Virus record (IMG/VR): IMGVR_UViG_3300009181_000356
Span: 1-23,320 of that record
DNA from: a virus
DNA length: 23,320 bases
Reading direction: 5' to 3' (one strand)
Made by a program: the position numbers and the translations under genes. Below the pieces are notes generated by a model that did not search any database, was not told the DNA's origin, and worked only from the letters and a program-made list of their open reading frames with translations. Numbering within the stretch: position 1 is the first letter of the stretch; every line of letters starts with the position of its first letter. Positions 10,561 through 19,689 of this stretch are shown one piece after another.

Positions 10561-12795
10561 CTATACGTGTTTCATGAGGTTTTCATGAGAATGACCTACA
10601 AACTTTTGAAAGGCTTCTTTCTCTGTTGGTTTCATGCCAGCATACTTCGACAAAATCTTTGCAGCATGTGTACCTGAAACTTCTTTCGAATCACCGTGTG
10701 TAAAGTTGATTTTAGATCCACCTAACATCGATGTCTTCGCTTTTTGAAGTTGATTCATGATATGTTCGTCAGCTTCGACTTTTGGTTTTGCAAGAACTTT
10801 GTTCTTCTGAAGTCTTTCAATTCTGGCCATATCTGCAGGATTGTTATGCATCAATTTTTCTTTAGTTCTCGGATGAATCGTAAAGTCTTTGGCTACACCT
10901 TTTTTAGGACGGCCACGAGCTTCGTCAAGTTCTACTTCTTCTTTACGGAAACGTGCCTTGAGATCCTGCTTGTTTGCCTTACCGCCCTTGGTCATTCGAT
11001 AAGAAGAACGTGCACGGTCAGCTAACTTATCACGATCTTGGAAAATATCTCTACCCGATCTACCATAAGCAGCAGTATATGAAGCATCTGCCGCGTGTTT
11101 TGCCATGTTAGGCCACTTCTTAGCAATCTTCTTTTGAAGAGTATAGCCGCGCACATCATCTGGATCCGAAGCGGCATATTGTAAAGCATTCATAGCCTTG
11201 CCCTTAGAGATCTCGTCGATCTGACCAACATTTGCATCTTCGCCTAACGCTTTTATAAGAGATCTGACATGATCGCCTTGAACAGATAGTGCACCACCAT
11301 GCTTTTTGATATCTTCGATTGCTGCAACATGCTTCATAGCAGGATGGTTTGGATCATTCTTTGCTTTTGCTTTTTTGATCATACCAGCAATATCATAAGG
11401 ATCTGTTTTTTCAAATATTTCATTGTTCAACGAATCAACAAAGTCTTGCTCTTCCTTGGTCAGTTTCTTAACTGCAGTTTCGATACCTTTATGACGCTTT
11501 GTGAGTTTCTTTTCAGCACCCGCTGCAGAACTACCGTGGGCTTCTTTGTGCCCTTGTCTATAAGAAACGATATCAATCGAGTCTTTGGCTTTATTGATAT
11601 AACGGCCCATTGTTGCCTTTGAGATCTCGTCGAGCTCTTCAACTTCTTCTTTAATATTAATTCTTTTATTCTTACCATGATGCCATCTAATGCCAGATTT
11701 CCATTCATCAGCCGAAATACCCTTTGGGTGCTTTTCACTTTTCTTTGAACCGTGCATCTGAGAATGGGTATACCAGCCATCATCTTCTTCGTCAAGCATA
11801 TTCTTGCCTAACTTAGTGCGTACTGCCTTCGCTAACTTCGATGCATCAACACCAAAATCGTTGGCTGCGGAGCGAACATGGCTTTTACGAATGTTATCGC
11901 CGTAACGCTTTTGAAGATGAGCAACAATCTTTGCAGTTTCATCGATTTGTGTGGCTGTATCGCATTCGCCGCAGCATTCGAGAGTTCCACAGTTGTTATG
12001 CTCTGCTTCTTCATTGGCTTTTTTGGCTTTCTCAATTGTTCTGAGCGCACGCATAGAACTCTTTGCGTCTTTGTTCATCTTAGCAAAAGTCTGTGGTTTC
12101 TTTGTTGTGCTTGATTTACCATCTGCGCTGATGTCGTAATCTCTTTCGCGCTTCCCTTTTAGATAGCGATAAGCCATATCAGAAGAGATCTCATCAACCT
12201 GCTCGACTTCTTCGTTCTTCTGCTTATTCATTGCCTTCTTTGCAAGATACTTGGCAACGTTCTTTACTTTATTGCCGTATTCGTCTTTGCGCTGGCCGAC
12301 TTCTTTATATGGGCCTTCGAATGGCATATCGTGGCTTTCGCTATGAAGATCTTTGTCAGCACCGCCATATGTGCCTTTACCCTTCGTGATATAAGAATTC
12401 ACACGAGCATGGGCCCACTGTTGTGGAGTTGTACCAGGACGATGGCCGCTATTCCAAGCTGCAATGCCACGAGCATATACTTTTTTCAAGGTTGACAAAG
12501 ATACACCAGATTTCTTTGCTTTATCTGCAAGACCACTTGATGCTTCTTCCACCATTTCCAGAATTTCTTCTTTCATTGGCTTCTTTTCTTTAGCCATCAT
12601 CGCACGAACTTTATCTGCAGTTTTCTTGTTTGCATCAGTCGGTTCGTCGGCAGTAGGCATATGGCCTTCTTCCATCTCTTCTGCTTCGCACTTTTCGCAC
12701 TCGCAATCGTCAGCATGTTTCTTCGCTTCGCCAAGAATGCCTCTTACTGTGTTGAGAAGATCAGCACTGAATCCTGTGATTTTATTCGTTAACAT
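10561..12795 (-). CDS. Large charged protein with repeated D-E sites, prohead-core candidate (744 aa)
   Basis: A 744-residue, Lys/Glu-rich protein with no membrane segment. Residues 92-150 hold a domain with GVSLSTLKKVYARGIAAW, the block HRPGTTPQQWAHARVNSY and KGKGT; the 680-aa neighbour has a second copy, and I associate it with DUF5872. Cys-rich clusters occur at 31-36 and 269-278. Sites of the form (V/I/L)-D-E recur at 200-202, 284-286, 334-336, 388-390, 526-528 and 623-625, often inside E-E-V-E-x-(V/L)-D-E-I-S, plus L21-G-E23. They separate module-sized segments. This fits a prohead-core protein cut by a gp21-like protease (L/I-x-E rule), but cutting is inferred. A CATAAATA late-promoter variant precedes it. 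Confidence 0.82.
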   Translation of the reverse strand: MLTNKITGFSADLLNTVRGILGEAKKHADDCECEKCEAEEMEEGHMPTADEPTDANKKTADKVRAMMAKEKKPMKEEILEMVEEASSGLADKAKKSGVSLSTLKKVYARGIAAWNSGHRPGTTPQQWAHARVNSYITKGKGTYGGADKDLHSESHDMPFEGPYKEVGQRKDEYGNKVKNVAKYLAKKAMNKQKNEEVEQVDEISSDMAYRYLKGKRERDYDISADGKSSTTKKPQTFAKMNKDAKSSMRALRTIEKAKKANEEAEHNNCGTLECCGECDTATQIDETAKIVAHLQKRYGDNIRKSHVRSAANDFGVDASKLAKAVRTKLGKNMLDEEDDGWYTHSQMHGSKKSEKHPKGISADEWKSGIRWHHGKNKRINIKEEVEELDEISKATMGRYINKAKDSIDIVSYRQGHKEAHGSSAAGAEKKLTKRHKGIETAVKKLTKEEQDFVDSLNNEIFEKTDPYDIAGMIKKAKAKNDPNHPAMKHVAAIEDIKKHGGALSVQGDHVRSLIKALGEDANVGQIDEISKGKAMNALQYAASDPDDVRGYTLQKKIAKKWPNMAKHAADASYTAAYGRSGRDIFQDRDKLADRARSSYRMTKGGKANKQDLKARFRKEEVELDEARGRPKKGVAKDFTIHPRTKEKLMHNNPADMARIERLQKNKVLAKPKVEADEHIMNQLQKAKTSMLGGSKINFTHGDSKEVSGTHAAKILSKYAGMKPTEKEAFQKFVGHSHENLMKHV

Positions 12796-12829: not shown

Positions 12830-13267
12830 TTATTTCATCGATGCGCGGAGCATCCATGCGTGTTTGTTGTGCTGATCCAGTCTTTCTTCAAGGAAGTTAA
12901 CGAGACCGTTTTGATTGTATTTGTCTGCTGCTTCTCTTGCAAGTTGAAGAGAAGCAAGAACTCGATTATTATCTTCGAAAAGATTAGTCACCATGGTTGT
13001 AGGAAGCAACTGAATAAGAGATTCATCTTCAATTGTTGATAGTTCATTGAACCTTCCGAACGAAGCTGGAGCATAAGATTTTTGGGCTCGAATCTCTTCG
13101 GCGAAAGGATCAATGGCACCGCCGACTTCTTCGTAGATGTTACCAAAGAATTCATGATACATCGGGAACATTGGTCCTTCGACATTCCAATGATAGTTTT
13201 GAGCCTTCACGTAAAGCGCATAGGTGTCTGCAAACGCGACCTTTAAAGGGTTTGTGATCTCTTCCAT
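12830..13267 (-). CDS. Dps-like ferritin (DNA-protecting iron oxidase)
   Basis: A 145-residue four-helix protein of the Dps family, normally a hollow 12-mer that binds DNA and oxidises iron with peroxide. Ferroxidase residues align with E. coli Dps at a constant offset of 25: H26 (NYHWNV), H38 (MYHEFF), D53 and E57 (IDPFAEEI). The counterpart of E. coli D67 is Gly42, so one ligand is missing. The C-terminal helix (NFLEERLDQHNKHAWMLRA) is typical. The protein is slightly short, without the Lys-rich N-terminal tail that E. coli Dps uses to bind DNA. TAATG couples it to the small cationic gene upstream. It may protect genome DNA from oxidation in the infected cell or in the head. Confidence 0.9.
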   Translation of the reverse strand: MEEITNPLKVAFADTYALYVKAQNYHWNVEGPMFPMYHEFFGNIYEEVGGAIDPFAEEIRAQKSYAPASFGRFNELSTIEDESLIQLLPTTMVTNLFEDNNRVLASLQLAREAADKYNQNGLVNFLEERLDQHNKHAWMLRASMK

Positions 13268-13560
13268 TAGTTACACTTCCATCTTCTTAATGACATTGCT
13301 TTACGAGTCGGTCTGCCTTTCTCGTCTTTCATTGGGCCTTTATTACCACTCATACGAGCACAGAATGACTTGCGTCTTCCTGCATCTTTTGATCCGGGTT
13401 TGACTTTACCTGTGACAGCAGTTTGTAGATTCGATCCAGGATTCTTTGCGCGAAAAGCTTTGACACCTTTCACAGTCATTCCTGCACCTTTTTCAGTGGC
13501 AATGAAATGACCTTTCGAGTCTTCGCCACGCTCAGTGATGAACTCTTTAAATCCGATCAT
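13267..13560 (-). CDS. Small cationic protein with capsid-targeting-like leader (97 aa)
   Basis: A 97-residue strongly basic protein. The N-terminus MIGFKEFITER resembles the leader of T4 internal proteins (F-x-E-F-I-x-E, cut after Glu by the prohead protease). The body has KPGSKDAGRRKSFCARMSG and ends in a RRWKC-like motif, a conserved phage block I associate with DUF6321. Cys at positions within KSFCARMSG and RRWKC could bind metal. Charge, leader and the adjacent Dps gene suggest a DNA-binding protein packed into the head. Overlaps with both neighbours (ATGA, TAATG) place it in one late operon. Confidence 0.8.
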   Translation of the reverse strand: MIGFKEFITERGEDSKGHFIATEKGAGMTVKGVKAFRAKNPGSNLQTAVTGKVKPGSKDAGRRKSFCARMSGNKGPMKDEKGRPTRKAMSLRRWKCN

Positions 13561-15599
13561 TCTGCGTCTCTCTCAATATCTGCTTCTTTCTTAACTTTTC
13601 TCCAAACAAATCCGGTTGGAGTACGAACTTTGACCATTCGAAAATCTGATCTGCGCTCGATATCTTCATCAAAAGCTGTATTGAATATCTCGTTGATATC
13701 TGCTTTTTCTTGGCCAGGAGTTTCTTTCTGATACTTCTTGACAAGCGATTTTGTACCAACTTCGCGAGTTGCAGAAGTATCTTCGTTAAATCCAAATGCA
13801 GCATCTACTTTTTTGTGGCCATGTTTATTACGCAAATACTGTGATATTGCACGGTCTTTTGTTTTAAATTCCGATGTATCAACTACTTTGCTTTGTTGTT
13901 TAATAAGTCCATGCAGCGTTTTAATATCGTGCTTTTTTAATGCGTCGTATTCTTTGACAATCGGATGCTTTTCGGCAGCTTCATTGATTCCTGCATGCTT
14001 ATGCGCAGAAGCTTTAAAGTTCAATCCAAAGTACTTGACATTGCCATGCTTATTCGAAGCTTTCCATCCACGTTGTTCAGTGCTGCCTTTTTCTGTAAAA
14101 GGCTTGACATATGGTGTATTGTTCGACTCGTCGATCACTTTGTTTTTAATCTGATCTTGAGCTAAGCGAATCTGTTGAGGATCGGCGTCTTTTTCTTTCT
14201 TGATAGTCGAAGCATTTCGCTTTATATACTGAACTTCTTGACGTTCTTGAGTACCAGTTTCTTTGTGCGCAGCAGTTCTTACGCCGACATATCTGATTTT
14301 ACCATGTCTTGCAGTATCAGCGATTTGATTACCTACTTGATCTTCTGTTGCTTCTTGAGCTGATTGCAATCCAGCCTGCGTTGGAGCACCTTTCGATCCA
14401 GGCTTACGCATGCGTTCACCAGATCCAGCTGCAATTCTCTTGCGCTTGGCATGAATGTTAGCCCAAAGACCTTCGTTGACATCTTCTCCGTACATAGCAT
14501 GATATTTCTTGGTATGTACAGATTGCGGCATCGGCTTCTTCCGAGCTGCCTTGTCACCAGGTGCATCTTGATATGCACGATCATCTTTGTCAGAATACTT
14601 TTCCATCTTTTTCCAGTGAGATTCGCGCGCCTTGGCAGTCGATGCACTCAGTCCAGTATGATAGGCAGATTCGAATATGCTATCGAGTTTATCATTGATA
14701 AGTTTCTCTTCGCGAAGATCTGCATCGAGTGTCCATGCTTTTCCTTTGGCAATATAGCTATTGACTCTTGCAAAAGAAAATTGTTCTTGCGTAGTTCTAC
14801 CGTCATTTTCCCACGCAAAAGAACCGCGCTCGAACACCTCTCTGAGGGTCGAGAACGGTATGCCGGTTCTTTCGGATTTTTGAATAAGAGTAGAAGTTGC
14901 GGCATCTTCTGGAAGAACTGCATTCAGCAGTCTCTTCAGCGTGATTCCCATCGAGTTGTCGTTCTCGTTGAGAGCATCGATCGATTCGCCGATAATGTCG
15001 ACGAGCTGCATCGAAGTCTTATTATCAAGACTCTCGACAATATTATTGAATTGTTCGTTGACGACCGGACCTGCAGTCGCATGCTGCAATTTTGCTCCGG
15101 ATTGAAATGAAGCCAAACGATTGACTTCTGCTTTTCGAAGAGAAGGCAAAAGACGAGCGGCTAATTTTCGAATTAGCTTAACTTTCTTATCAACTACTCT
15201 ATCGACTTGAATCTTTTCAGATGTCGTAAGCTCGGTATAAGGTGTACCCTTCCGAGCTGAGAATCTCATCTTGACGATGTTTCTTGCTTTGTTGATTGCT
15301 CGAGCCTTCAGCTTATCTTCTGAGGCGAGCTTATGCTGCGAAACTTCTTTCGCTCTTTGCATCTTTGGTTCTTTGGCTCTTAAGATGCGAGCTCGACGTT
15401 GCCGTTGAACAAGTGTCAACGCTTTTTTCTCAGCTAAGGTGTCAGTTAGGACTACGGTATCCTCGTTATGCTGGCGATTTCCGAGACCCTTAAGCTGAGG
15501 ACGGATCTCGATACCATCAAGCGGTTTGCCAGTTACAGACTTTCCAGTTGGTTTCTTTAATTGTTGAGTATCAACCGGTTTTTTATTCTTATCTTCCAT
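13557..15599 (-). CDS. Large basic capsid-interior candidate (680 aa)
   Basis: A 680-residue, strongly basic protein. Residues 55-165 form an Arg/Lys-rich helical domain (ALTLVQRQRRARILRAKEP, later IRKLAARLLPSLRKAE) that I know from marine T4-like phages. Residues 240-295 repeat the domain of the 744-aa protein (TGIPFSTLREVFERGSFAW, FARVNSYIAKGKA). The middle has a conserved-looking block (GLWANIHAKRKRIAAG, then GSKGAPT). No catalytic motif is seen. It is probably a prohead-core or DNA-associated head protein. A perfect late promoter (15661-15668) and an AAGGG ribosome binding site precede it; the stop overlaps the next start (ATGA). Confidence 0.82.
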   Translation of the reverse strand: MEDKNKKPVDTQQLKKPTGKSVTGKPLDGIEIRPQLKGLGNRQHNEDTVVLTDTLAEKKALTLVQRQRRARILRAKEPKMQRAKEVSQHKLASEDKLKARAINKARNIVKMRFSARKGTPYTELTTSEKIQVDRVVDKKVKLIRKLAARLLPSLRKAEVNRLASFQSGAKLQHATAGPVVNEQFNNIVESLDNKTSMQLVDIIGESIDALNENDNSMGITLKRLLNAVLPEDAATSTLIQKSERTGIPFSTLREVFERGSFAWENDGRTTQEQFSFARVNSYIAKGKAWTLDADLREEKLINDKLDSIFESAYHTGLSASTAKARESHWKKMEKYSDKDDRAYQDAPGDKAARKKPMPQSVHTKKYHAMYGEDVNEGLWANIHAKRKRIAAGSGERMRKPGSKGAPTQAGLQSAQEATEDQVGNQIADTARHGKIRYVGVRTAAHKETGTQERQEVQYIKRNASTIKKEKDADPQQIRLAQDQIKNKVIDESNNTPYVKPFTEKGSTEQRGWKASNKHGNVKYFGLNFKASAHKHAGINEAAEKHPIVKEYDALKKHDIKTLHGLIKQQSKVVDTSEFKTKDRAISQYLRNKHGHKKVDAAFGFNEDTSATREVGTKSLVKKYQKETPGQEKADINEIFNTAFDEDIERRSDFRMVKVRTPTGFVWRKVKKEADIERDAE

Positions 15600-15660: not shown

Positions 15661-15668
15661 TATTTATA
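15661..15668 (-). promoter_or_regulatory. Late promoter TATAAATA
   Basis: Perfect T4 late consensus TATAAATA on the minus strand in the 88-base gap before the 680-aa gene. Transcription would start about 6-7 bases downstream, leaving a leader of about 55 bases with the AAGGG site. It is likely the main promoter of the capsid-interior operon (680-aa, cationic, Dps-like genes). Its downstream leader contains no hairpin I would trust. Confidence 0.7.
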
Positions 15669-15687: not shown

Positions 15688-16299
15688 TCAACTAATCCAG
15701 TTTTTAAATCGAATAATAAATGATTCGTTGACACCCATACCTTTGCGGACATCATGATACAATTCATCTTTATGTGCTTTACTCATACCCGATGGAGCCA
15801 TCTTATGAAATGATTCCTTATCTCCAGCTGCAGCATGCTTACGCATCGTAGTACCAGAAGCAGATTCAATTCCACTTCCGCCTTCCGTACGCTCACCGCC
15901 TACAGCCTTGACTTTAATACTTTTAAAGTTATAGTGACCGTGTTTACCTTCTGCACCATTGTATCTATGCAACAGAGCGTGAAATTCTTTAACACGATCT
16001 GATCCGACATGCATGGTAACGTGAGTATAACCAGCTTTGTGTAGTTTTGACATCTGATGAAGAAGCGTAGGATGCTCTCTTGTCATGGCTTCGACGTGTG
16101 CACCCTTGACAGCGCGAGAAAGATGCTTTACCTTTTGCTCTGGCGTCAAAGGATTCTTCTTTGCATCATGAGATCCAGTCGTTAAGATCTTATGATCTGC
16201 ACCTTCTTTTTTGGCGGCATTCATTACATTCTGTACAACCATCGCATGTCCAGCATGAACAGGATTAAATCTTCCTTGTGTAATATGAATTGACTTCAT
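15688..16299 (-). CDS. NMNAT-like nucleotidyltransferase (HxGH family)
   Basis: A 203-residue protein of the HxGH nucleotidyltransferase superfamily, which transfers AMP or CMP from a nucleoside triphosphate to a phosphate acceptor (NMN in NAD synthesis, phosphopantetheine, glycerol phosphate). The Rossmann start GRFNPVHAGH carries the H15-A-G-H18 motif. G99-S-D-R and the second nucleotide-binding motif S146-A-S-G-T-T-M-R153 are in place, and A-G-D follows as in NMN adenylyltransferases. The inserts are unusually rich in His and Gly (GKHGHYNF). NMN is the likeliest acceptor by motif style, but a 5'-phosphate on RNA or a sugar phosphate cannot be excluded. The start overlaps the ligase-like stop (ATGA). 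Confidence 0.87.
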   Translation of the reverse strand: MKSIHITQGRFNPVHAGHAMVVQNVMNAAKKEGADHKILTTGSHDAKKNPLTPEQKVKHLSRAVKGAHVEAMTREHPTLLHQMSKLHKAGYTHVTMHVGSDRVKEFHALLHRYNGAEGKHGHYNFKSIKVKAVGGERTEGGSGIESASGTTMRKHAAAGDKESFHKMAPSGMSKAHKDELYHDVRKGMGVNESFIIRFKNWIS

Positions 16300-17465
16300 G
16301 CTGGTTTACCTCTATTAAAATTGGCCGCCGAGAACTCAGCGCGATCAACAAACTTAGTAGGACGATTATGTCTGACTACCACAAAGCCTTCAGGCTTTGC
16401 TTTCTTTCCATTAATACTATGATCAAATTCTGAATTACTTGAAAGTGTATTCGTTAATATGTTCTTGGCCTTCTGCAGCGCCTTATGTTGATTTAATACA
16501 TTTTCAAAATGCGCACGATTGCGTTGAACATGACCAATTGCCGTTTCCATCTCGGCAGTTTTTGCTGCTTTTGCTTTTTCGGTTTTTACACTATCAACCC
16601 TTTTCTGTTGCGACTTGATGTAGTGATTCATAAAACCTTCGACATTCGGTCTTGTACCGGTACGAACAGTATGATTAATGTAAGTCTTGAGTGGAACCTC
16701 GTGGCCTTTGATCGCTTCATACGTTTCAGGCTTTGTTTTTTTATTCGCCTTTGCTGCAGCAGCCATCGCCCTTGCAAATCTTTCTCGTTGCTGAGGAGTA
16801 TATTTAATATTATCAAGGCGATGAGCAGTAGAAATCAAATGCACATCTCTATGCAATCCAAACTCGCTCAAATCAGCGCCGTGTTCGGCTTGCATATCTT
16901 CGAGATTATTACCATTATACTTCGTATGAACGGCAATGCCTATCTTTGCGTTTAAAGCAGCTTGGCCTTGCGCTGAAGCTCTCGCAGCAGAATACGTAAT
17001 CGTATTTGGAGTAAAGTGCACGCGACCATCAGATTCATGCACATCATTAGGCGTATGCATAATATCACCTTGGAAAACACCTTTCTTCGGTGTGACTTTC
17101 GGAAGATGTTGTAAAGCTGCTTTGAGTTTTTCTACCAAACCCGGAGCATGACCGTGATTCTTTTGAATATCTTCTTCGGTGTAGTTAATCTTCGGATTCT
17201 TATTAAAGGCAGACTTTGATGCCACGAAGAATCGACCGGTTTGAGGATGACGACCAAATACTACAGAAGGAGAACCATCATACTTCATAGTCACTTTGGT
17301 ATCGTTCTTCTTACCAGTCAACTTATCATGCACATCTTTCAGATTATGATAGGCATGAGAAAAGCCTTCATGACCAGCATTAATCACGTGATCTTCAGCA
17401 TGCTCAAGATGCGTAAGTTTACTTTCGTCGAGCTCTTCGGCAAGGAAATCTTTAAAGGTTGTCAT
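16296..17465 (-). CDS. Ligase-type nucleotidyltransferase with capsid-targeting-like leader (DUF6267-like)
   Basis: A 389-residue protein I associate with phage DUF6267, with the motif order of covalent nucleotidyltransferases (DNA/RNA ligases, capping enzymes). Motif I is K61-Y-D63-G64-S-P-S, with K61 the candidate AMP-lysine. A motif III-like F131-Q-G133-D134 and a motif IIIa-like region (IGIAVH, 175-180) follow. Motif IV is P358-E359-G360-F361-V, and motif V is probably K371 in TKFVDR. An Ala/Lys-rich helical insert of about 100 residues (220-330) separates the halves. The N-terminus MTTFKDFLAEELDE resembles the T4 internal-protein leader and offers L-A-E and L-D-E cutting sites. It overlaps genes on both sides by 4 bases. 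Substrate is unknown; end sealing of DNA or RNA is possible. Confidence 0.83.
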   Translation of the reverse strand: MTTFKDFLAEELDESKLTHLEHAEDHVINAGHEGFSHAYHNLKDVHDKLTGKKNDTKVTMKYDGSPSVVFGRHPQTGRFFVASKSAFNKNPKINYTEEDIQKNHGHAPGLVEKLKAALQHLPKVTPKKGVFQGDIMHTPNDVHESDGRVHFTPNTITYSAARASAQGQAALNAKIGIAVHTKYNGNNLEDMQAEHGADLSEFGLHRDVHLISTAHRLDNIKYTPQQRERFARAMAAAAKANKKTKPETYEAIKGHEVPLKTYINHTVRTGTRPNVEGFMNHYIKSQQKRVDSVKTEKAKAAKTAEMETAIGHVQRNRAHFENVLNQHKALQKAKNILTNTLSSNSEFDHSINGKKAKPEGFVVVRHNRPTKFVDRAEFSAANFNRGKPA

Positions 17466-18067
17466 CGTACTGTTTTTACCGATCCATCAGGATTTACAAA
17501 ATAAGCTTCGAACGTAATGTTAGGAAATTCTTTCTTTAACGAAAGAAATGCTTGAAGATTGCTCGGAGCATCATCAAACAACCGAAGCTTTACGTAGTTC
17601 TTAGTATTTATATACTTCCGAAAAATGATCTTCTTGGCTTCTGCCGAAGAGTCTATCTTCAGGTTACCAGCGCGTTCGACATGGATATTATCGATAGGTA
17701 GACCATGATCTCTGAACGTCTGAAGGAAGATATCCTTATTATCGAAGTCAGCTCGTGCTGTGCAGATAATCACTCGACTATGAGGATTCTTCTTTGAGTT
17801 AGCAAAGATCGCTTTTGTTTTGGCAACCATTCGAGTGATTGGTTTAGATGACTTGCGAAACACCTCAGCATTTGCAAACTCTCCGAAGTCGTAGGTTTCA
17901 CCCTTCTTACGTTTGTAAGTGTTGAACTCTTGGTTGTCGAGCATTCGAACAACCTTGCCATCTTTCACAACAGCAACCTTTGCATATGTATGGAACAGCG
18001 TCTCATCGATATCGAATATCGTAAGCGTACCTGAACCAACAAACTCTCTGAAACGTTTCTTTATCAT
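17462..18067 (-). CDS. HAD-family phosphatase
   Basis: A 201-residue haloacid-dehalogenase phosphatase. Motif I F18-D19-I-D21-E-T-L has D19 as nucleophile and D21 as acid/base. Motif II is around I100-I-C-T103-A-R-A-D, a candidate motif III Lys lies at 145-146, and motif IV is D165-D166 (LFDDAPSN). The D-x-D-x-T type and size resemble the 3'-phosphatase half of T4 polynucleotide kinase (PseT); no kinase P-loop is present. The N-terminus (RFREFVGSG) is a weaker version of the FKEF leader without a cutting site. It is first of three overlapping genes, followed by the ligase-like and NMNAT-like genes. Function in nucleic-acid end healing is inferred. Confidence 0.87.
   Translation of the reverse strand: MIKKRFREFVGSGTLTIFDIDETLFHTYAKVAVVKDGKVVRMLDNQEFNTYKRKKGETYDFGEFANAEVFRKSSKPITRMVAKTKAIFANSKKNPHSRVIICTARADFDNKDIFLQTFRDHGLPIDNIHVERAGNLKIDSSAEAKKIIFRKYINTKNYVKLRLFDDAPSNLQAFLSLKKEFPNITFEAYFVNPDGSVKTVR
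17605..17612 (-). promoter_or_regulatory. Internal late promoter candidate TATAAATA
   Basis: A perfect TATAAATA followed by CTAAG on the minus strand, inside the HAD gene (coding Y-I-N-T) and about 140 bases before the ligase-like start. It also matches the extended T4 late box TATAAATACT. It could drive late expression of the ligase-like and NMNAT-like genes without the phosphatase. Being inside a coding region, it may also be chance. Confidence 0.4.
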
Positions 18068-18103: not shown

Positions 18104-19060
18104 CTAAATAATCAAAGTGTTGCGATTTTTTATTGCAGTCAATTTAGCAACGATAAAAAATCTAGCTCCTGGTACACCAAACTGTGTGCGATCTTGTGCA
18201 GGACGACAGTAGTAATAACACTCATAGTCTCCAGAAGGAATTTCTCCATGCACTACTGTATGATTGCTCGTGATCTTATAGTTTCCGCCTACTTTTGCAA
18301 ATGACATTGGGCCTTGATAAAGAACGTTAATGTTCTGTCGGCCGCTTGCTTTACCTGCTTTATAATCTTTACCGTATAAAGTTTTTAACGCTACACTCTT
18401 TGCTGACACCGGACGAGCAAAAGCCGTCTTCATAGGCAATCTTTTTCCACCAAGAATCTTCTTAACATCATTAGCAAACTGAAGAACCTCGGCTTCATCA
18501 TTAATTTCAGTCATACCGCCGTATTGTTGAAAGTCATTGGCTTTTCTTCCTTTTTTATGAGAGATCCAGGCAACCTCGTTACCTTTCTCATCGATCACGT
18601 GAAAGTCTGCTTTTGGTGTACCGGGAGTCGAAATGACTTCGGCCATTTTTACAATTTCATTGCCAATCTTAACTTTAATATAAGGTGTTTTTTCTGTAGA
18701 AAGAACTTCTGCTAGTTTTTTCTGGATGTCTGCAAGCGCGACATTTTCAGCTACTGTACCAGAACCCGCACCTTTACCGCCAAATTCTGCAGACTTGGCA
18801 AAATCTGCAAATTTATATGTTATTCCGGTGGTACTAGTAAACTTAATTGCGCCCAATGCTTTTTTGTTTCCAGAATTATAAGCGGACATCGCTAAAGTTT
18901 CAAGATCAGAATCTTTTTTAATCTTTACGAGTTTACCACTCATAAGTAAAAATTCTTCTCCTGCTTTGATCTTATCAAAGAAGGTATTGATTCTTCCTTC
19001 TCTGCCAGCTTTTAATAGCTCAGAAGGAATCAGTGGTCTATAAGGTGTTTTATTTGTCAT
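18104..19060 (-). CDS. Putative PD-(D/E)XK-like nuclease (318 aa)
   Basis: A 318-residue protein, counted from the ATG at 19060. The frame continues to a TTG at 19078, but that part is the late promoter itself. Candidate nuclease-like elements occur in order: the glycine-rich F93-G-G-K-G-x-G-S-G-T with E105, K150-A-D152-F, a turn E158-K-G-N-E, and the strand V163-A-W-I-S-H-K169-K. Asp followed by a strand ending in x-x-K is the PD-(D/E)XK pattern, here with Ser in the Glu position. Phage proteins with the start Y-R-P-L-I-P-S-E-L-L are familiar to me but their function is not. Nuclease activity is therefore a hypothesis. It follows a terminator and is expressed from its own late promoter. Confidence 0.75.
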   Translation of the reverse strand: MTNKTPYRPLIPSELLKAGREGRINTFFDKIKAGEEFLLMSGKLVKIKKDSDLETLAMSAYNSGNKKALGAIKFTSTTGITYKFADFAKSAEFGGKGAGSGTVAENVALADIQKKLAEVLSTEKTPYIKVKIGNEIVKMAEVISTPGTPKADFHVIDEKGNEVAWISHKKGRKANDFQQYGGMTEINDEAEVLQFANDVKKILGGKRLPMKTAFARPVSAKSVALKTLYGKDYKAGKASGRQNINVLYQGPMSFAKVGGNYKITSNHTVVHGEIPSGDYECYYYCRPAQDRTQFGVPGARFFIVAKLTAIKNRNTLII

Positions 19061-19064
19061 GATA

Positions 19065-19072
19065 TATTTATA
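19065..19072 (-). promoter_or_regulatory. Late promoter TATAAATA, leaderless arrangement
   Basis: Perfect late box TATAAATA on the minus strand, ending 4 bases before the ATG at 19060. T4-type late transcription starts about 6-7 bases after the box, so the message would begin at or next to the start codon. It follows directly after a terminator, which supports a real transcription boundary. Confidence 0.6.
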
Positions 19073-19112
19073 AAACAAAAGAAAACCGCTCCAGTATCTC
19101 TACTAGAGCGGT
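19073..19112 (-). terminator. Rho-independent terminator after the 185-aa gene
   Basis: A hairpin with ACCGCTC (minus strand, 19112-19106) pairing with GAGCGGT (19091-19085). A further inner stem AGTA/TACT closes a GAGA loop. A T-rich tract (TTTCTTTTGTTTT) follows on the minus strand. It lies 20 bases after the stop of the 185-aa gene and before the next late promoter. Confidence 0.85.
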
Positions 19113-19131
19113 CATATTAATTTTAATTATA

Positions 19132-19689
19132 TTAGGCTGCGATTGCAAACCATTCTGGAATTGGACGCTTAGTCCATGCCATCTTGAAGCGATCTTGCTT
19201 CGTCTGATAGAACTTACGATAAGATCCTACGATGTCATTGTAATCGATACACTCGGGAAAAGCCGCCATAGCCAATGGGAACTGAGTCTTGTAGCCAATC
19301 GGAATGTTACGAGGCAATTGCTTCAGTGCTTCTCGTAAGAGGGTATCTGTGCTATGAACCTTGCCATAGCGATACGTGTACTCGTCACAGAGAGCAGCAA
19401 AGTGTATCCAGTGCCAAGTATAGTTGTTATTGCTTTGTGCAGTCCAAATCGTGCAAGGATGATGCATATGCACAGCACGATAGAATGTATCTTCGCGTTC
19501 GTCAGGAAGAGTCCATGCCTTCGACATCGTCTTACCAGACTTCGAAGGAATACGACATTGCTCACCGTCAAGCATACGATGGACTGTCGAAAGCATCTGA
19601 GCACTCTCGACAATCATCTTCACTACGTGCTTATCACACTGCAGCTGAGCTGCTTTTACAGGATCAGTATCTAATACAAATACATTCAT
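19132..19689 (-). CDS. Conserved phage protein of unknown function (185 aa)
   Basis: A 185-residue protein beginning MNVFVLDTDPVKAAQLQCDKH, then VVKMIVESAQMLS and HRML. The middle is rich in His and Trp (MHHPCTIWTAQSNNNYTWHW) and the end has PLAMAAFPE and YRKFYQTK. The pattern of conserved-looking Asp, His, Cys and Trp suggests an enzyme or metal protein. I have seen the N-terminal block in other phage and bacterial proteins but cannot assign an activity. ATGA couples it to the SGNH hydrolase gene upstream, and a strong terminator closes the transcript after it. Confidence 0.8.
   Translation of the reverse strand: MNVFVLDTDPVKAAQLQCDKHVVKMIVESAQMLSTVHRMLDGEQCRIPSKSGKTMSKAWTLPDEREDTFYRAVHMHHPCTIWTAQSNNNYTWHWIHFAALCDEYTYRYGKVHSTDTLLREALKQLPRNIPIGYKTQFPLAMAAFPECIDYNDIVGSYRKFYQTKQDRFKMAWTKRPIPEWFAIAA

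Follow-up and report, generated by a model that had tools for sequence, protein, structure and literature searches.

What could a phosphatase, a ligase-like protein and an adenylyltransferase-like protein have in common in a virus in which their genes overlap each other by four bases? This question is raised by the IMG/VR virus record IMGVR_UViG_3300009181_000356, of which the whole stretch of 23,320 nucleotides (the window) was analysed, a 23.3-kb fragment in which the head genes are not included. On its minus strand the genes of a HAD phosphatase (17462-18067, 201 amino acids), of a DUF6267 protein (16296-17465, 389 amino acids) and of an HxGH protein similar to NMNATs and cytidylyltransferases (NT; 15688-16299, 203 amino acids) are joined by 4-base overlaps at 17462-17465 and 16296-16299, just as an original prediction made from the bare sequence had described. 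That prediction stopped one gene short, for the gene upstream of HAD (18104-19078, product named NUC here) heads the same unit. On balance, we favour the explanation that this cassette is a capsid-packaged end-processing kit of a T4-related phage, injected early and probably directed against host defence. No near-identical phage DNA matching the window was found in the annotated collection, and no tRNA or Rfam RNA was found across it.

An RNA-ligase-like protein and its partner enzymes

The 389-residue protein belongs to the Pfam family DUF6267 (E 2e-101). Relatives occur in 468 annotated phage records, mainly of cyanophages, other carriers being Pelagibacter, Methylophilales, Stenotrophomonas, Vibrio and Pseudoalteromonas phages. 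An open-access literature search found no paper naming DUF6267, although such an absence is weak evidence. In 63 homologues, reaching down to about 30% identity, the residues K61, D63, G64, P66, Q132, D134, E359, G360, K371 and R375 are invariant. The ligase motifs I, III, IV and V had been predicted for this protein. Motif I (K61-Y-D63-G64, 17274-17285, like all motifs given here on the minus strand) is invariant in the 63 sequences save for Y or W at position 62, and so is motif IV (E359-G360, 16386-16391). In motif V (K371-x-V-D-R375, 16341-16355) K371 and R375 are invariant and the second lysine (KxK) is absent, while the motif-III-like segment with the invariant Q132 and D134 (17064-17072) reads Q-G-D and not E, so that this claim holds for I, IV and the first lysine of V.

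The AlphaFold2 model of DUF6267 (mean predicted local distance difference test score, pLDDT, 91.3; residues 1-12 disordered) contains between motifs III and IV a mainly helical insert (approximately residues 224-341). Structural comparison covered the PDB families listed by Foldseek. The top match in VIA is the nick-sealing RNA ligase of Naegleria (Z 10.1, 3.5 Å, 184 residues), with further matches to the RNA-editing ligase REL1 (8.7), T4 Rnl2 (8.4), T4 Rnl1 (8.3) and a fungal tRNA ligase (8.0). The top 29 rows are all RNA ligases (Z 7.0-10.1), DNA ligases come next (6.5-6.8), and the best Z exceeds the level of 7-8 which the tool gives as typical of models without a clear match. Foldseek, too, places ligases of DNA or RNA in all of its first eight positions. 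The ligase fold suspected in the original prediction is thus specified as RNA-ligase-like: judged from the model, DUF6267 very probably has such a fold, and we place it in a new family of RNA-ligase-like nucleotidyltransferases with putative ligase activity. It resembles the Naegleria gruberi RNA ligase and other Rnl5-type nick-sealing ligases, from which it differs by the long helical insert, by being a phage-only family and by having no OB-domain match reported in the aligned range.

The same structural data bear on the possibility that DUF6267 and NT modify DNA or RNA ends with AMP or another group and that no sealing takes place. Capping enzymes share the nucleotidyltransferase fold and one is found among the Foldseek matches, motif V lacks its second lysine, and the helical insert takes the place of the known ligase accessory domain. 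However, in structure it is nick-sealing RNA ligases, not capping enzymes, that match best, and we consider end protection of this kind quite unlikely.

NT, with homologues in 528 phage records, is assigned to CTP_transf_like (PF01467, 3e-6, 27.9 bits with a cut-off of 21). It carries the predicted HxGH motif (16246-16275) and an ISSTxxR-like S-x-x-x-x-R motif (15841-15858) in which S148 and R153 are invariant. All matches to the curated NMNAT models of NCBIfam stay far below cut-off (best 25.4 bits versus 127). Because NT lies above the CTP_transf_like cut-off and below every NMNAT cut-off, it is filed simply as NMNAT/cytidylyltransferase-like, and of the predicted NMNAT-like adenylyltransferase the HxGH part stands while the NMNAT part is left below threshold. 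For the HAD protein the predicted D-x-D-x-T motif is present as DIDET and conserved across 8 diverse members. It falls in no Pfam family but matches phrog_415 'polynucleotide kinase' (E 4.4e-9) and is classed as PseT-phosphatase-like; an hhalign comparison with T4 PseT was limited to motif I, and tblastn found no HAD match in cultured phages. Sequence-profile comparison with solved structures gave no match of value for DUF6267, NT or HAD. In one relative (L124, 5000-5989) a HAD phosphatase follows, in the same protein, a capsid-tagged N-terminal region which contains a HELVHH zinc-protease-like motif.

The phosphatase had been described as lacking a kinase. This is correct for the window, but a polynucleotide-kinase-like gene is present in the same cassette of relatives, which strengthens the end-healing and sealing reading. 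The gene of this P-loop kinase (zeta toxin 3e-13; PHROG polynucleotide kinase 8e-8) either stands between those of DUF6267 and NT or is fused to the latter. Among 80 IMG/VR loci fetched by the DUF6267 protein, the order HAD, DUF6267, NT is kept in nearly all; therefore the arrangement in the window is not due to chance. The neighbourhood anticipated in the original prediction is indeed conserved: NT lies at most 4.5 kb from DUF6267 or is fused to it in 42/42 loci of a near set, 33/45 of a far set and 21/22 of a third set. DUF6267-NT fusions are known from S-PM2 and several metagenomic phages, and NT-kinase fusions occur in relatives as well. No other finding speaks as strongly for a joint pathway as these fusions and the neighbouring genes. 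The proposed nucleic-acid-end cassette with a ligase-like centre is thus strengthened by neighbourhood, fold and fusions; its setting changes, since packaging in the virion is likelier than synthesis during infection.

A supply of NAD could also unite these genes. The NMNAT-like protein, in relatives with the kinase and the HAD phosphatase, would restore the NAD of the infected cell or adjust its level, either to counter NAD-depleting defence or to allow ADP-ribosylation, and the ligase-like protein may use NAD+ with NMN being recycled. Such a role has been proposed in cyanophage papers (PMC9602691) and is compatible with the HxGH and ISSTxxR-like motifs and the weak NCBIfam matches. The latter are, however, far below the curated cut-offs (best 25 bits versus 127), the kinase resembles zeta-toxin and polynucleotide kinase families and not the NadR kinase, and the ligase-like fold and the nuclease slot described below are left unexplained. 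We therefore hold NAD supply to be unlikely, and found no support for the NMNAT-like enzyme making NAD, as had been suggested, or feeding the ligase. A NadR-like reading of the NT-kinase fusion was likewise rejected: the domain order fits, but there is no NadR family match.

Capsid-targeting tags, late promoters and the variable first gene

The DUF6267 protein starts with MTTFKDFLAE (17436-17465, minus strand), an N-terminus of the capsid-targeting type with F4 and F7 for targeting and L8 and E10 for processing. In T4, IPII and IPIII start with MKTYQEFIAE and IPI with MKTFKEF. For the packaging of IPIII its first ten residues are sufficient, positions 4 and 7 target the protein and positions 8 and 10 govern its cleavage (PMC9026906). 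At all four mapped positions the window protein agrees with IPIII. Counting non-redundant proteins, the tag pattern is found in 45/68 DUF6267, 23/48 NT, 4/10 HAD, 4/11 kinase and 6/12 NUC proteins, compared with a background of 2/516 opposite-strand open reading frames. It is also present in 31 of 613 other same-strand frames, many of them located within or next to the cassettes. For each of the five enzymes, some relatives have tagged homologues. Phage C48C1 and Stenotrophomonas phage DLP_6 are cultured relatives with a tagged DUF6267. In G001, the closest large relative (128.8 kb), two tags are convincing, those of DUF6267 and DUF6321, and a gp21-type prohead protease is encoded (PF03420, 7.5e-35). 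The assumption that either DUF6267 or NT is tagged, but never both, was rejected, as both are tagged in many loci. The terms 'capsid targeting' and 'cyanophage' occurred together in just one T4 review in the open-access search, an absence elsewhere that is weak evidence.

A second variable insertion point lies between HAD and DUF6267 (L009, L019, L023-L029, L024, L061-L063, L077, L090). The inserts are small or medium proteins (55, 88, about 330 amino acids), all with capsid-targeting-type starts such as MKTFKDFV.E, MKSFKNYIAE and MKSFKSYIKE. In T4 itself, gene 57B (L199, 9953-10411), annotated in the record as RNA ligase, adjoins ipI and starts with the somewhat capsid-targeting-like MMEFKDFSTG.

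Tags and a location in the virion would also be compatible with enzyme-derived core or scaffold proteins having no catalytic role, and T4 IPIII is known to affect head assembly. The catalytic residues of DUF6267, NT and HAD are, however, invariant at about 30% overall identity, which makes a purely structural role very unlikely.

The sequence TATAAATA, in T4 the late-promoter box, stands as a late-promoter-like element at the head of the cassette (19065-19072) and again upstream of a 680-residue protein gene (15661-15668), where it is conserved in 27/27 relatives, both boxes being on the minus strand. In 830 kb of relatives it occurs 190 times on the gene strand versus 4 times on the other, counts that are not independent because the set is redundant. 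ATAAATA lies within 110 nucleotides upstream of the slot gene in 63/64 loci, versus 5.7% of random gene-strand windows. A terminator-like hairpin of 13 pairs (19084-19113, minus strand) separates the cassette from the upstream Pyr_excise-like gene.

The first gene of the unit, on the minus strand like the others, is listed as an open reading frame of 324 codons beginning with TTG at 19078; the ATG at 19060 (MTNKTPYRP) is the likelier start. In a survey of 71 relatives (L007-L083) its position proved to be a hypervariable slot, filled by 11 clusters without mutual BLAST match, while the flanking Pyr_excise-like (PYR) and HAD genes are conserved. Fifteen homologues of NUC share E111, P155-K156-x-D158-F159 and W171-x-S173-H174-K175. 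Its model (pLDDT 82, predicted template modelling score 0.62) matches MspI with Z 6.4 over 165 residues, followed by DrdV, 3ijm and BsoBI, mostly restriction-type folds. Because of the invariant E111, D158 and S173-H-K175 and the MspI-like model fold, NUC is a probable PD-(D/E)xK (restriction-endonuclease-fold) nuclease. It resembles MspI and other such endonucleases in its modelled fold, the D..(S/E)xK site and the upstream E, but it has no sequence family match and sits in a hypervariable phage slot. The active site is deviant, with S173 in place of E and D..SxK in most slot types. The D..(S/E)xK pattern is present in 10 of the 11 cluster representatives versus 11-34% of their shuffled copies (in two of these ten the hit lies away from the site chosen by eye), and in the eleventh PD..ELK was seen by eye. 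It is likely that the slot as such holds a PD-(D/E)xK nuclease with a deviant site and putative activity.

NUC might be a weapon, injected or made late, against host, plasmid or rival-phage DNA, while ligase, phosphatase and NT shield or mend the nucleic acid of the phage itself. The presence of 11 types without mutual BLAST similarity in a single slot flanked by well conserved genes would fit this, as would the tagged relatives of NUC and the position of window-type NUC relatives directly upstream of DUF6267 even in loci without HAD. However, the nuclease activity is a prediction, most slot types have the deviant D..SxK site, and neither self-damage nor paired specificity is supported, so that we rate this combination of weapon and antidote as improbable.

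Published virion proteomes provide a further line of evidence. Homologues of NT were detected by mass spectrometry in purified virions of S-SZBM1 (2 peptides, PMC9146016), S-CREM2 (3 peptides, PMC10665884) and S-SCSM1 (PMC9602691). These are direct homologues of the window NT, in S-SZBM1 encoded in the same cassette. Two have tagged N-termini (S-SCSM1 MKSFLQFLKEA, S-SZBM1 MRFRQFIIEA), on which the accessible text of the two proteome papers makes no remark. In that literature, as far as it is accessible, the proteins are read as NAD or cell-wall enzymes, and tag, ligase-like partner and nuclease slot are not discussed. Tags across the enzyme set would explain why NMNAT-like proteins recur in cyanophage virions. 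The S-SCSM1 record also labels a PD-(D/E)xK-like neighbour as virion protein. Its gp282 was tried as a DUF6267 protein and rejected, being the PD-(D/E)xK-like protein; a shortened DUF6267 is located elsewhere in S-SCSM1.

A proposed packaged end-processing set

The capsid-targeting N-terminus of DUF6267, the late promoters and the hypervariable nuclease-like first gene had all been overlooked in the original prediction, and these features move the likely context away from repair enzymes synthesised in the infected cell towards enzymes carried by the virion. Together with the hypervariable leader, the late expression and the capsid tags point to head cargo delivered at infection, like the T4 internal proteins. 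The similarity to T4 IPI-IPIII and Alt includes the 10-residue tag with aromatic residues at 4 and 7, a hydrophobic residue at 8 and E10, the gp21-type protease (in the relative), the late promoter and the variable cargo genes. Unlike the T4 proteins, which are small inhibitors or of unknown function, or in the case of Alt an ADP-ribosyltransferase, the cargo would here be a nucleic-acid-type enzyme set. We infer that this set is likely to be packaged in the capsid.

In the proposed mechanism the cassette would be transcribed late and encode internal proteins. DUF6267 would enter the prohead core by its T4-type targeting sequence, be trimmed after E10 by the gp21-type protease and be ejected into the host together with the DNA. 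Other members would be packaged by tags of their own, as in relatives, or, in the window phage, by binding a tagged partner. Inside the host the PD-(D/E)xK protein would cut, and the HAD enzyme, in relatives with the P-loop kinase, would heal ends. DUF6267 would auto-adenylylate on K61 and seal or adenylylate an end, most likely of RNA, and the NMNAT-like protein may contribute an adenylyl transfer connected with these reactions. For the set as a whole, the likeliest purpose would be instant readiness against nuclease-based host defence, for example tRNA or DNA cleavage. End processing as the task of these putative activities is our choice with modest confidence, while repair of RNA, tRNA in particular, is possible but somewhat doubtful. 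Gene content and order, fusions, motifs, the fold match, the tags, the promoter boxes and the published detection in virions of NT homologues and one PD-(D/E)xK-like neighbour are observations. For this phage itself we infer not only activities, substrate and purpose but also that its own proteins are packaged and ejected.

The tRNA repair system of T4 (Pnkp, that is PseT, and RNA ligase) is similar in having a phosphatase, a kinase (here in relatives) and an enzyme of RNA-ligase fold, and in principle in acting on ends. It differs from the present set, to which NMNAT-like and PD-(D/E)xK partners are added, and PseT and Rnl1 are not known to be capsid cargo.

Several observations weigh against a packaged end-processing kit. 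The enzymatic activities are predicted from sequence and models. The Foldseek E-values of DUF6267 against ligases are weak (best 0.037), and it differs from T4 Rnl1 and Rnl2 in its insert and in having no sequence-profile match to them; hhalign aligned the EG[FY]V segment alone, so that the ligase-like assignment rests on fold and motifs. Of the window proteins, NT and NUC lack a recognisable tag and HAD has a partial one. The untagged DUF6267 homologue S-SZBM1_141 is absent from the published virion list (PMC9146016), no proteome was found for any phage whose DUF6267 bears a tag, and DUF6267 has not been reported in any virion. Furthermore, the proteome authors point out that abundant infection proteins can contaminate virions (PMC9602691).

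DUF6267 and its NMNAT-like partner occur in about 470-530 sequenced phage records, mostly of cyanophages, with a function so far not assigned or guessed. What the analysis contributes is the assignment of DUF6267 to an RNA-ligase-like fold, its links by gene fusion to kinase, phosphatase and NMNAT-like enzymes, and the T4-type tags across the set. If the packaged end-processing kit is real, repair enzymes would reach the host with the genome, ahead of any phage gene expression. A wider idea, which we regard as speculative and rather doubtful, is that T4-related marine and freshwater phages carry in their capsids, and inject, a modular kit of weapon and repair enzymes for nucleic acids. It would be composed of a fast-swapping restriction-like nuclease, a conserved phosphatase/kinase, DUF6267 as a new family of RNA ligases and an adenylyltransferase, each with an exchangeable T4-type capsid tag. 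The short tag offers a means of finding further packaged proteins of uncultured T4-like phages.

Neighbouring genes of the late region

Next to the cassette, the window region 19132-19689 gives a weak match to Pyr_excise (T4 DenV family). In T4 (L199) denV likewise has ipII and ipIII, genes of internal proteins, as its neighbours; the arrangement is possibly an old synteny. On the other side, in the same late region, three associated minus-strand genes encode a DUF6321 protein with the capsid-targeting-type N-terminus MIGFKEFITE (13267-13560), a 680-residue protein with a DUF5824 domain (13557-15599), which also ends the NT fusion protein of HTVC008M, and a 744-residue protein (10561-12795), which shares the C-terminal domain of the NT-containing phrog_3041. 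The DUF6321 domain (RRKSFCARMSG) forms the C-terminus of an NT fusion in L086 (13197-15347) and likewise of several families of large phage proteins. A domain of phage NT fusions (STL..VY.RG..AW...GHRPGTTPQQWA.ARVNS) recurs in both of the large proteins, which are likely further virion cargo or core proteins. A Ferritin/Dps-like protein of the same late region (12830-13267; Pfam Ferritin 4e-19, PHROG DNA binding protein), conserved in relatives, is a possible packaged DNA-binding protein.

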